From NCBI GenBank assembly GCA_946885645.1, contig CAMPGU010000164.1, positions 1 to 9,059 on the forward strand: a stretch of 9,059 bases of DNA, written 5' to 3'. Under the pieces are notes generated by a model. It saw only the letters and a list, made by a program, of their open reading frames with translations. It did no database searches and was not told the DNA's origin. Both the position numbers and the translations under genes were made by a program. Positions 6,709 to 9,059 of this stretch are shown piece by piece (position 1 is the first letter of the stretch; every line of letters begins with the position of its first letter). This DNA comes from an uncultured Haloferula sp. (GTDB lineage: Bacteria; Verrucomicrobiota; Verrucomicrobiae; Verrucomicrobiales; Akkermansiaceae).

Positions 6709-6711
6709 TTG

Positions 6712-7242
6712 ATGAGCCGCATTCTCGGAGCCGACGACATCGAGCGGGGCATCGTCGCCCTCGCCACCGCGATCCGTGAACGCACCGCGGGCAAGCCGAT
6801 CGCGCTCGTGGGCATCCGCAGCCGCGGGGACGAGGTCGCCGAGCGCCTGTGCAATCATCTTGCCGCGGAGGACCGCGAGTTGGCCTTGGGCATCCTTGAT
6901 ATTTCTCTCTACCGCGACGATTACGAGCACCTGCGGGAGAACCCGAAATTGCAAGAAAGCGATATCCCGTTCCCGGTCGATGATGCCCACATTATCCTGG
7001 TGGACGACGTTCTTTTCACCGGCAGGACCATCCGCGCCGCGCTCGATGCGCTCTCCGACTACGGCCGGCCGGCGAAGGTGGAGCTGGCGACGCTGATCGA
7101 CCGCGGCCACCGCGAGATGCCGATCCAGCCGGATTATACGGGCATTCTCCTGGAGACTTCCCGTCATGATCACGTGCATGTTTCCTTGGAAGCGTCCGAT
7201 GGAGAGGACAAGATCGAAGTCGTAGCACGAACCCCGGACTGA
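6712..7242 (+). CDS. pyrR: Bifunctional pyrimidine operon regulator/uracil phosphoribosyltransferase PyrR
   Basis: The 176 residues match PyrR in length and order: ALVGIRSRGDEVAERL (31-46), LGILDISLYRDD (59-70), IPFPVDDAHIILVDDVLFTG with the PRPP loop VDDVLFTGRT (97-106), LIDRGHREMPI (128-138) and the tail DGEDKIEV (163-170). Family knowledge: PyrR binds pyr mRNA in a UMP/PRPP-dependent way and often also converts uracil plus PRPP to UMP. The start is ATG at 6712, three nt after the purD stop; a TTG at 6709 is in frame and less likely. No PyrR-binding leader is visible immediately upstream, since that region is purD coding sequence. The local regulatory target is therefore not evident, and the enzyme activity may be the main role. 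It is followed after 3 nt by the unknown membrane protein. Confidence 0.95.
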   Translation: MSRILGADDIERGIVALATAIRERTAGKPIALVGIRSRGDEVAERLCNHLAAEDRELALGILDISLYRDDYEHLRENPKLQESDIPFPVDDAHIILVDDVLFTGRTIRAALDALSDYGRPAKVELATLIDRGHREMPIQPDYTGILLETSRHDHVHVSLEASDGEDKIEVVARTPD

Positions 7243-7245
7243 TCC

Positions 7246-7929
7246 ATGCTGCCAGAACGCCGGAAAACCGCCGAGGAAATCGCGAAACTCCGCGAGGACA
7301 TGGGTATTCCCGGCGCGACCGCCGCGCCGGTGGAAACCGCTCCCGGACCCGCCGCCTCCCGTCCCGAACCGGACGACGGTGACGCCGCAGGCGAAGGGGG
7401 CGAGGCTGCCCCGCGGCCCGCGGCAAAGGCGGTGCGCTCGCTCCGCAAGTCCGAGCAAGCGCCGGCAGTGTCCGCCAGTAGCGCGCCGCGCGAGAACGGC
7501 GGGGCGATACCCGCCCGCCGCCGCAGCGAACGCGAGCTGATGGAGCTGCGGCGGACCCAGGCGACGCCGCCCGACCAATCGATCGCCTACATCCGGAATC
7601 TCGCCGTCCCGTGGCCCTTGGTGGCGCTGGGTTATCTCCTGCCGCTGACGGGTGCCTTGCTGGGCTGGCTGTCGGTATGGACGCCCACGGTGATGGAACC
7701 GGATTTCCCGGCCATGTGGATGGCCGATCTTTCGCGCGAGCCCTGGCTTGGCAGCGCGGGTTTGGGCGCGCTCCTCGGACTCTGTCTCGCGGGCTTGCTG
7801 CTTGCCGGGTGGTTCGGCTGGAAGAAGCCGCGCTCCCGCCATCATGCGGGCTTCATCGCGGTCATCGCCGTTTTGATCATCGTCTTCGCTCTTGTCCTCA
7901 AGTTCGCACCTGCCGCGCATGGCCCGTAA
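7246..7929 (+). CDS. Unknown three-segment membrane protein within the pyr operon
   Basis: I do not recognise a family. The 227-residue protein has a soluble, Ala/Pro/Glu-rich and probably disordered N-terminal half (1-115). Three hydrophobic segments follow (about 122-145, 169-191 and 200-220), with a short loop and a basic KKPRSRHH turn between the last two. The N-terminal half holds a recurring motif LRx5P at 15-22, 66-73 and 101-108. Two of these belong to longer similar helices, RRKTAEEIAKLRED and RRRSERELMELRRT, exactly 86 residues apart. It starts 3 nt after the pyrR stop, and its last 11 nt overlap the start of pyrB, so translation is probably coupled. The position suggests a lineage-specific partner, but the gene may be only a passenger. 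No transporter signature such as a UraA/UraF motif is seen. Confidence 0.82.
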   Translation: MLPERRKTAEEIAKLREDMGIPGATAAPVETAPGPAASRPEPDDGDAAGEGGEAAPRPAAKAVRSLRKSEQAPAVSASSAPRENGGAIPARRRSERELMELRRTQATPPDQSIAYIRNLAVPWPLVALGYLLPLTGALLGWLSVWTPTVMEPDFPAMWMADLSREPWLGSAGLGALLGLCLAGLLLAGWFGWKKPRSRHHAGFIAVIAVLIIVFALVLKFAPAAHGP

Positions 7930-8839
7930 GGATCTTCTCGATATCAGTTCGCTCGACCGGGAGGAGATCGATCTCCTTCTGGATCAGGCGGTTCCTTTCA
8001 AGGAGCTCTTCACCCGCTCCGTCAAAAAGGTTCCCGCCCTGAAGGGGAAGTCCGTGCTGATGCTCTTCTACGAGCCGAGCACGCGGACCCATTCCTCCTT
8101 CGAGGTGGCGGCCAAGCGTCTCTCCGCGGACGTGACGAATTTCGATGTCCCGCATTCCTCCGTCGTGAAAGGGGAGTCGGTGCGCGAGACGATCGAGACG
8201 CTCCAGGCGATGCGGACGGATTTCATCGTGGTGCGCCATGGCCGCAGCGGCTTGCCCGGCATGATCGCCGGAATGACAAAGGCGAGCGTGATCAATGCGG
8301 GCGACGGGGCCCATGCGCACCCCACCCAGGCCTTGCTCGATGCCTTCACGCTGAAGGAGGTTTTCCCGGACCTGAGCGGCAGGAAGGTGCTCATCATCGG
8401 TGACATCCTCCACAGCCGCGTGGCGCGTTCCACCAGCACGATCCTGAAGCGGCTGGGCGTGGAGGTCGCTTACCTCGGGCCCGGCTCGCTGGTGCCGAGG
8501 AGCGGACCGGAGAACATCCGGCGCTTCACCGACTATGAGGAGGCGATGAAGTGGAAGCCGGATGCGGTCTATCTCCTGCGGGTCCAGATGGAACGGCAGG
8601 ACGTGCAGTATTTCCCGAGCCTGAGGGAGTATCACAAGGTGTATGGGATCACCGAAGAACGCCTGAAGCGGATCGACGGGGAAGGCATGTATCTGATGCA
8701 CCCCGGACCGGTGAACCGCGGCGTGGAGCTCTGCGACGGAGCGATGGATTATTCGCGATCGCTCATCAACCGGCAGGTCGAGAACGGCATCGCCGTCCGC
8801 ATGGCGGTGCTTTATTGGCTGAAGCCGGCGGAGGAGTAG
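7919..8839 (+). CDS. pyrB: Aspartate carbamoyltransferase catalytic chain
   Basis: PyrB condenses carbamoyl phosphate and aspartate in the second step of pyrimidine synthesis. At 306 residues it has the length of a normal catalytic chain. The carbamoyl-phosphate site is YEPSTRTHSSFE (51-62), followed by the mobile-loop VVKGES (82-87), where K84 is the expected catalytic Lys. Then come HAHPTQALLD (132-141), GDILHSRVARS (161-171), RVQMER (221-226) and MHPGPVNRGVEL (260-271), the last contributing to the aspartate side. The common STRTR is STRTH here, as in some other bacterial enzymes. ATG at 7919 overlaps the end of the preceding gene by 11 nt. A longer frame upstream (to 7892) is less likely because MARKDLLDIS is a natural start. 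No pyrI or pyrC follows; instead a REP hairpin begins at the stop codon, whose TAG (8837-8839) is part of the repeat head GTAG. Confidence 0.97.
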   Translation: MARKDLLDISSLDREEIDLLLDQAVPFKELFTRSVKKVPALKGKSVLMLFYEPSTRTHSSFEVAAKRLSADVTNFDVPHSSVVKGESVRETIETLQAMRTDFIVVRHGRSGLPGMIAGMTKASVINAGDGAHAHPTQALLDAFTLKEVFPDLSGRKVLIIGDILHSRVARSTSTILKRLGVEVAYLGPGSLVPRSGPENIRRFTDYEEAMKWKPDAVYLLRVQMERQDVQYFPSLREYHKVYGITEERLKRIDGEGMYLMHPGPVNRGVELCDGAMDYSRSLINRQVENGIAVRMAVLYWLKPAEE

Positions 8840-8858
8840 CACGACGTTCCACGTCGTG
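8836..8858 (+). repeat. REP-like unit 1: GTAG head plus palindromic hairpin, overlapping the pyrB stop
   Basis: GTAG at 8836-8839 is followed directly by CACGACGT-TCC-ACGTCGTG (8840-8858), a perfect 8-bp stem with a 3-nt TCC loop. A GTAG or GGAG tetranucleotide at the foot of a hairpin is the form recognised by REP-associated tyrosine transposases (RAYTs). The pyrB TAG stop lies inside the tetranucleotide. The unit may also stabilise the operon mRNA 3' end; there is no T-run for intrinsic termination. Confidence 0.75.
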
Positions 8859-8913
8859 TGGGGGTGGACGGAGGGAGAGGCGTCGCCTTTGGGAAAGGGG
8901 CGGACGGGAGGAA

Positions 8914-8936
8914 CGCGACATGGAATGTCGCGCTAC
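8914..8936 (-). repeat. REP-like unit 2, inverted relative to unit 1
   Basis: Read on the minus strand this is GTAG (8936-8933) followed by CGCGACAT-TCC-ATGTCGCG, a perfect 8-bp stem with the same TCC loop. It differs from unit 1 at two stem positions, each balanced on the other arm (G-C against A-T, and A-T against G-C). The pairing is therefore conserved while the sequence differs. Confidence 0.75.
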
Positions 8937-8937
8937 T

Positions 8938-8973
8938 AAAAACCCCGCCGCGGCGGATGGCCGGGGCGGGGTT
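8938..8973 (-). terminator. Intrinsic terminator of the leftward pseudopilin-like gene
   Basis: The inverted repeat AACCCCGCC / GGCGGGGTT (8941-8949 and 8965-8973) forms a 9-bp arm. It continues after one G-G mismatch with CGGC/GCCG and a 5-nt loop GGATG. Read leftward the stem runs into TTTTT (8942-8938), a proper terminator tail. On the plus strand there is no T-run after the stem, so it mainly serves the leftward gene, whose stop is 28 nt away. REP unit 2 starts immediately beyond it. Confidence 0.78.
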
Positions 8974-9001: not shown

Positions 9002-9059
9002 TTACCAGGTCTTGATGTCGTCGCCTTCACCCAGCTTGCCATCCTGGCCATAGCTGTAG
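9002..9059 (-). CDS. C-terminal end of a type II secretion-type pseudopilin/prepilin (partial)
   Basis: Read leftward from the right edge, the frame gives YSYGQDGKLGEGDDIKTW and a TAA stop at 9004-9002. The pattern S-x-G-x-D-G-x-x-G-x-x-D-D-I followed by a Trp-containing end is the usual tail of GspG/PulG-like major pseudopilins, where Asp residues in this segment bind calcium. Such proteins are numerous in Verrucomicrobiota and Planctomycetota genomes. The N-terminal methylation motif and helix lie outside the window, so the assignment rests on 18 residues. It is convergent with pyrB and is followed by a clear terminator. Confidence 0.7.
   Translation of the reverse strand, partial: YSYGQDGKLGEGDDIKTW

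Follow-up and report, generated by a model that had tools for sequence, protein, structure and literature searches.

The window analysed here, that is, the whole 9,059-nt stretch of contig CAMPGU010000164.1 and not the element within it, carries near its right end two facing hairpin units of the repetitive extragenic palindromic (REP) type. The pair, which has the layout of a REP doublet forming hairpins (REPIN), lies between a gene at 7919-8839, presumably pyrB, and a convergent gene. The following features were annotated in this region:

7919..8839, plus strand: presumed pyrB (aspartate carbamoyltransferase), 306 aa, C-terminus WLKPAEE
8836..8858, plus strand: left REP unit with GTAG head, 8-bp stem and TCC loop, GTAGCACGACGTTCCACGTCGTG
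8859..8913, no strand: spacer of the putative REPIN, 55 nt, in the middle of which a further stem can form
8914..8936, minus strand: right REP unit, inverted, with its GTAG outward, GTAGCGCGACATTCCATGTCGCG
8941..8973, minus strand: hairpin resembling a terminator, with arms at 8941-8954 and 8960-8973 and a minus-strand T-run, adjoining the right REP unit
9002..9059, minus strand: 3' end of the convergent gene, truncated where the window stops, ending in ..SYGQDGKLGEGDDIKTW and a stop

An earlier reading of these letters alone (the sequence-only reading) had described two GTAG-headed units with an 8-bp stem and a TCC loop, facing each other across 55 nt. This was confirmed, with no mismatch to its degenerate pattern in either unit. 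Each unit is 23 nt long with a perfect 8-bp stem, and the whole element measures 101 nt. When the whole window was scanned with up to three mismatches allowed, these two units were the only matches, and no match was obtained at the same setting in 200 shuffles. Both units consist of the GTAG foot and short palindrome of a REP unit, and they are inverted, with GTAG outward, around a spacer of some tens of nucleotides as in a REPIN. The two stem differences that had been noticed were also recovered, with pairing kept in both units: A-T versus G-C at unit positions 6/22, and G-C versus A-T at positions 11/17. As single-stranded DNA (ssDNA), the 105-nt stretch 8834-8938 formed a pair of small hairpins with a stem between them (z -5.0 versus shuffles, 0 of 200 as good), and this two-hairpin form (-24.1) was favoured over a long-hairpin form (-18.9). 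As RNA, the 101 nt folded into a single long hairpin in which the units pair with each other (-45.8 kcal/mol). The sole Rfam match, at 17.5 bits, lies far under the gathering score of 140 and was rejected as chance.

Copies of the unit were searched for in related genomes, which are designated G here, with their loci designated L. With the pattern of the sequence-only reading and three mismatches, seven of 20 genomes gave a match. However, four genomes also had a single match each in the reversed control, and what matched in G006 and G020 was not unit-like; therefore, a wider degenerate pattern without mismatches was adopted (GTAGCRCRACNTNNNANGTYGYG). This pattern gave 200 matches in eight of the 145 genomes sampled from the family, unit positions being those among the matches listed per genome, and one match in the reversed control. 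The matches were distributed over G002 (79), G005 (44), G003 (26), G001 (22), G004 (16), G097 (9), G144 (3) and G026 (1). Nine of 386 genomes matched in a sample of the order, including one match each in G016 and G377 from outside the family sample. Within the genus of G003, seven of 18 genomes carried the pattern. No match to the degenerate pattern of the sequence-only reading was found in viral contigs. The copy count proposed as a check in that reading came out, in relatives, in favour of a REPIN, some of them carrying many copies of related units.

For the counts of layout, pairing and gene ends, 20 regions, mostly places with several units, were picked by hand and the remaining loci were those returned by searches; the counted units are not all independent, since tandem copies and orthologues are among them. 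With units kept only if at least seven of eight pairs were formed, the loci examined yielded 45 adjacent unit pairs, window included, 32 of which had GTAG outward (p 1e-10 against 1/4), nine were in tandem and four had GTAG inward. The 32 include one 27-nt palindrome that was detected as a unit on each strand. Among the other 31, 18 measure 101-111 nt and 13 measure 144-198 nt, and the window, with 101 nt, falls into the first, narrow class. Mostly inverted pairs were therefore found when orientation and spacing were checked, and the spacer sequences differ between REPINs.

Base pairing was tested in 94 units at the three stem pairs that the pattern leaves free. Pair 6/22 was A-T in 30 units, G-C in 61, G-T in three and A-C in none (Fisher 1.7e-21), while pair 8/20 was A-T in 67, G-T in 23 and G-C in four (p 0.006). 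Pair 11/17 was Watson-Crick in 92 of the 94, a value reached by 0 of 10000 permutations, and the window alone had A-T at this pair. The folded form is maintained across the unit family, by selection or by copying between arms. The two differences between the window units had been interpreted as compensatory and, for that reason, as a sign of selection. Pairing was indeed kept in the 94 units, but each of the two forms of pair 6/22 occurs often in the family, and two fresh mutations are not needed; nor is selection required, because the arms could also stay paired if one were copied from the other.

Matches to Pfam PF01797 (Y1_Tnp) were detected in ten of ten relatives examined. Proteins resembling REP-associated tyrosine transposases (RAYTs) are encoded in G004 and G005; they are 69% identical, and each gene lies between REPINs of the family to which the window units are related. 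A third RAYT-like gene, in G002, encodes a protein 88% identical to that of G004 and has units on both sides. A RAYT gene flanked by the same unit had been suggested as a check, and in these three relatives such genes are flanked by units of the same family, which carry the common stems of the family and not the exact stem of the window. The G004 and G005 proteins pass the gathering cut-off of PF01797 and have its HUH and tyrosine motifs and its fold. The best match of the predicted model of P0001, which is identical to the G004 protein (88 sequences, predicted local distance difference test score 89.8), was 4er8, a TnpA-REP bound to a REP hairpin; a search of solved structures by sequence only gave no match below E 0.05.

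At E 1e-20, a profile built from the G004 and G005 proteins matched 66 of the 145 genomes. Within 450 nt of 30 RAYT loci, taken out of many more matches in these 66 genomes, GTAG/GTGG hairpins were found on both sides at 14 loci, on one side at four and on neither side at 12. Under a wider hairpin rule, flanking hairpins occurred at 1.15 per kb versus 0.17 in a mononucleotide shuffle. At RAYT identities of at least 69% the flanking stem was that of the family, and at 61% (G144) one pair was swapped. Larger stem differences prevailed at 51% or less, the exception being L172 (47%), where a unit has one pair swapped. Units flanking different RAYTs change at all eight pairs on both sides of the stem (23 distinct rows); as these rows were picked for pairing, their 100% pairing is built in, and the test on 94 units is the fairer one. 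An IS200/IS605-type transposase gene at L147 (G003:C3:65492-65833), with a window-related REPIN beside it, was rejected as the cognate RAYT, having units on one side only and scoring over the IS200/IS605 model.

At the pyrB locus the TAG stop codon (8837-8839) falls within the GTAG of the left unit (8836-8839); neither this overlap nor the terminator-like hairpin had been noted in the sequence-only reading. The C-terminus, WLKPAEE in the window and WLKPAGE in L001-L003, has the same end point in all of them and looks native, and the protein is therefore neither cut nor lengthened by the element. Relatives of pyrB were the best 80 of 190 loci encoding a relative. Those nearest to the window, five in number and 88-94% identical, belong to Verrucomicrobiota, namely four metagenome-assembled genomes (MAGs) and Luteolibacter marinus, and in all five the similarity to the window breaks off at 8828-8839. 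In the 30 of the 80 loci that were examined, no GTAG/GTGG unit of the same geometry was found within 300 nt of the pyrB end; L004, with a GCGG-headed hairpin of seven out of eight pairs downstream of pyrB, was the sole locus with anything similar. Since no conserved element is present there in relatives, a fixed terminator at the end of pyrB, which the comparison of orthologous loci had been meant to detect, is disfavoured. At L158, G003 carries a REPIN between two genes of the same direction and G001 also carries one, with one GTGG head. In G002 and G005 the same flanks lie about 254 and 139 nt apart, and the sequence between them is a different one that contains no unit; because these intergenic stretches differ between genomes, an exact empty site was not seen. 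L160, where G001 has two tandem matches to the unit pair, was dropped from the presence/absence comparison, its flanks being on different contigs (G002, G004, G005) or about 5 kb apart (G001).

The copies in relatives, their inverted pairs, the units flanking RAYT-like genes and the unconserved site support the REPIN-like nature proposed earlier, and we estimate at about 90% the probability that the element is a REPIN, i.e. two inverted REP hairpins moving as one small non-autonomous element. In related genomes, similar sequences occur in multiple copies and on either side of transposase genes, which makes it very probable that the element is a small parasitic repeat belonging to a class described before. 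Most likely it is moved by a RAYT-like HUH enzyme; we infer a cognate RAYT and further copies in the window's own genome. By the mechanism known for such elements, a RAYT/TnpA-REP HUH endonuclease would act in trans and bind each unit in single-stranded form by its GTAG foot and its hairpin, its tyrosine would cut beside each unit, and the element would be rejoined elsewhere. The copy in the window sits between pyrB and the convergent gene, where its left GTAG supplies or overlaps the pyrB stop, so that no damage is visible.

Several observations weigh against a REPIN. An orthologous empty site was not found at the pyrB locus, the downstream side being unconserved in the five close genomes. 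No match to the wide pattern was found in 137 of the 145 family genomes and in 377 of the 386 order genomes, and the stem variant of the window is rare, C-G at pair 8/20 occurring only in G002 (three copies) among the 18 genus genomes. The GAA that usually precedes GTAG in the family (84, 79 and 77 of 94 units by position) is GGA and TTA in the window. Some units of the family are also followed by TGCTTC, which gives a longer imperfect palindrome GAAG..CTTC; neither window unit has GAA or TGCTTC. With the NCBIfam model NF047646 for REP transposases, the G004 and G005 proteins reach 62 and 60 bits (E 6e-17 and 2e-16), short of its cut-off of 80, and are for this reason termed RAYT-like. Finally, five of the eight REP-bearing genomes (G001, G003, G026, G097 and G144) have no RAYT as close as those of G002, G004 and G005, although this absence is weak evidence in G001 and G003, as both are MAGs.

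The missing GAA and the missing close RAYTs would also fit a decayed remnant, in which the REP units were left after the host had lost its RAYT and mobility was gone. G001 and G003, with 94% pyrB identity, have 22 and 26 units and no close RAYT, and the GAA extension is missing in the window. A remnant would, however, be expected to lose one unit, whereas in the window GTAG, the perfect 8-bp stem and the paired arrangement are preserved in both units, and the absence of a gene from two MAGs is weak evidence; we regard a remnant as possible but doubtful. The fold of the 101 nt as RNA, at a stop codon between convergent genes, would instead agree with an RNA element of the pyrB transcript, its units pairing into a long 3' hairpin that increases mRNA stability or prevents read-through into the neighbouring convergent gene. 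The left unit, however, has no T-run after it, and a terminator scan of the region, which requires a hairpin directly followed by a T-run, gave sites at neither REP unit but at 8791-8809 (plus strand) inside pyrB and at 8944-8957 (minus strand). The latter lies in the separate hairpin 8941-8973, which adjoins the element and probably ends the convergent gene. Moreover, the position is unconserved, as seen from the break in similarity and from the relatives examined (29 of 30 without a unit near the pyrB end, the 30th, L004, with its GCGG hairpin only), and related units end many other open frames. An RNA element is thus unlikely, and a secondary RNA effect is possible and compatible with a REPIN. 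A chance inverted pair beside a terminator, with which the presence of a single pair in the window would agree, is refuted by the 200 shuffles and by the repetition of related units in relatives, and is left with a negligible probability.

The element was compared with known systems. In Pseudomonas fluorescens SBW25, REPINs form three groups in one genome, each clustering beside its own RAYT (Bertels and Rainey 2011, PMC3116915). Like the element in the window, they consist of two inverted REP units around a spacer and fold into hairpins; they differ in stem sequence and phylum, and their excision was seen in sequencing reads, whereas here there is only presence/absence at one locus (L158). 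Twenty-four GTAG families have been described, and Opitutus terrae is rich in them (Di Nocera 2013, PMC3733652). Its GTAG-17, -19 and -20, likened here by description and not by stem sequence, share the phylum, the GTAG or GTGG head and the short palindrome, but GTAG-17 and GTAG-19 dimers have spacers of 1-2 bp as against 55 nt in the window. The REP-Sm units of Stenotrophomonas maltophilia with group 3 TnpA-REP (PMC8266576) agree in their 23 nt, perfect 8-bp palindrome, 3-nt loop and GTAG foot; the host is distant from that of the window, and its proteins belong to subclass 2.5 with a median of 151 aa (Quentin 2018, PMC6006769), while the RAYT-like proteins found here have about 215 aa. These proteins resemble TnpA-Y1 subclass 2.7 (PMC6006769), compared by motifs and length only, in its median of 213 aa, its [ND]HVH and WQ motifs and its flanking GT[AG]G REPs. 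Subclass 2.7 is listed from Cyanobacteria and few other phyla, and YIFQNP and YIRENP here do not exactly fit its motif YI[LR][NQ]NP; the G005 protein has NHIH.

The sequence-only reading had suggested a little-described Verrucomicrobiota REP family. Given the Opitutus terrae REPs described in 2013 (PMC3733652), this holds only in part; the novelty lies in the stem variant, in the host group and in the many REP/RAYT pairs which that group contains. None of the papers listed from the open-licence PMC literature dealt with REPINs of Luteolibacter or Akkermansiaceae, and as far as the literature examined goes, RAYT/REPIN pairs have so far been studied mostly in Proteobacteria. One bacterial family with many RAYT-like genes and differing hairpins is a natural data set for the co-change of HUH endonuclease and hairpin, and the relatives are also suited to asking why such repeats gather at gene ends.

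In 48 of 88 units the TAG of GTAG closes an open frame that spans 100 codons or more, the other two frames giving 9 and 33; this count used open frames and not gene calls, and one unit with less than 400 nt before it was excluded. In PMC3733652, GTAG REPs are already stated often to supply the stop codon to flanking open reading frames, and the overlap is therefore an agreement with that work and not a discovery. A broader idea would be that in Luteolibacter and its kin REP/RAYT pairs have co-changed in stem, loop and head, and that the REPIN prefers gene ends, its GTAG doubling as a stop that makes insertion harmless by design. We hold this to be speculative and rather improbable, its odds being lowered by the L172 unit (47% identity), which differs in one stem pair only.

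Varied hairpins flank the RAYT-like genes at L166-L195, with GTGG heads at L174, L176-L178, L181 and L183, and with 9-bp stems and 4-nt loops at L171, L174 and L176. At L169 (G144:C1:5595379-5596011) the match to a RAYT-like gene contains one in-frame TGA and is flanked by REP units with one pair swapped (CGCAAGTT). In P0043, P0053 and P0056 Y1_Tnp is listed alongside other domains, namely PF02621 in one protein and PF02580 in two, and P0056 is named D-tyrosyl-tRNA(Tyr) deacylase by a source.

Upstream of the element, at 6709-8839, a presumed pyrR-like gene, a gene without an assigned product (7246-7929) and the presumed pyrB adjoin or overlap in one direction. At 16 of the best 80 loci (L044, L047, L054, L057, L058, L060, L062, L068, L070-L072, L074, L075 and L078-L080) the pyrB relative comes from Hymenobacter or, in one case, Solirubrum, genera which we take to be Bacteroidota, and is 79-82% identical to that of the window; this likeness suggests a possible gene transfer between phyla.
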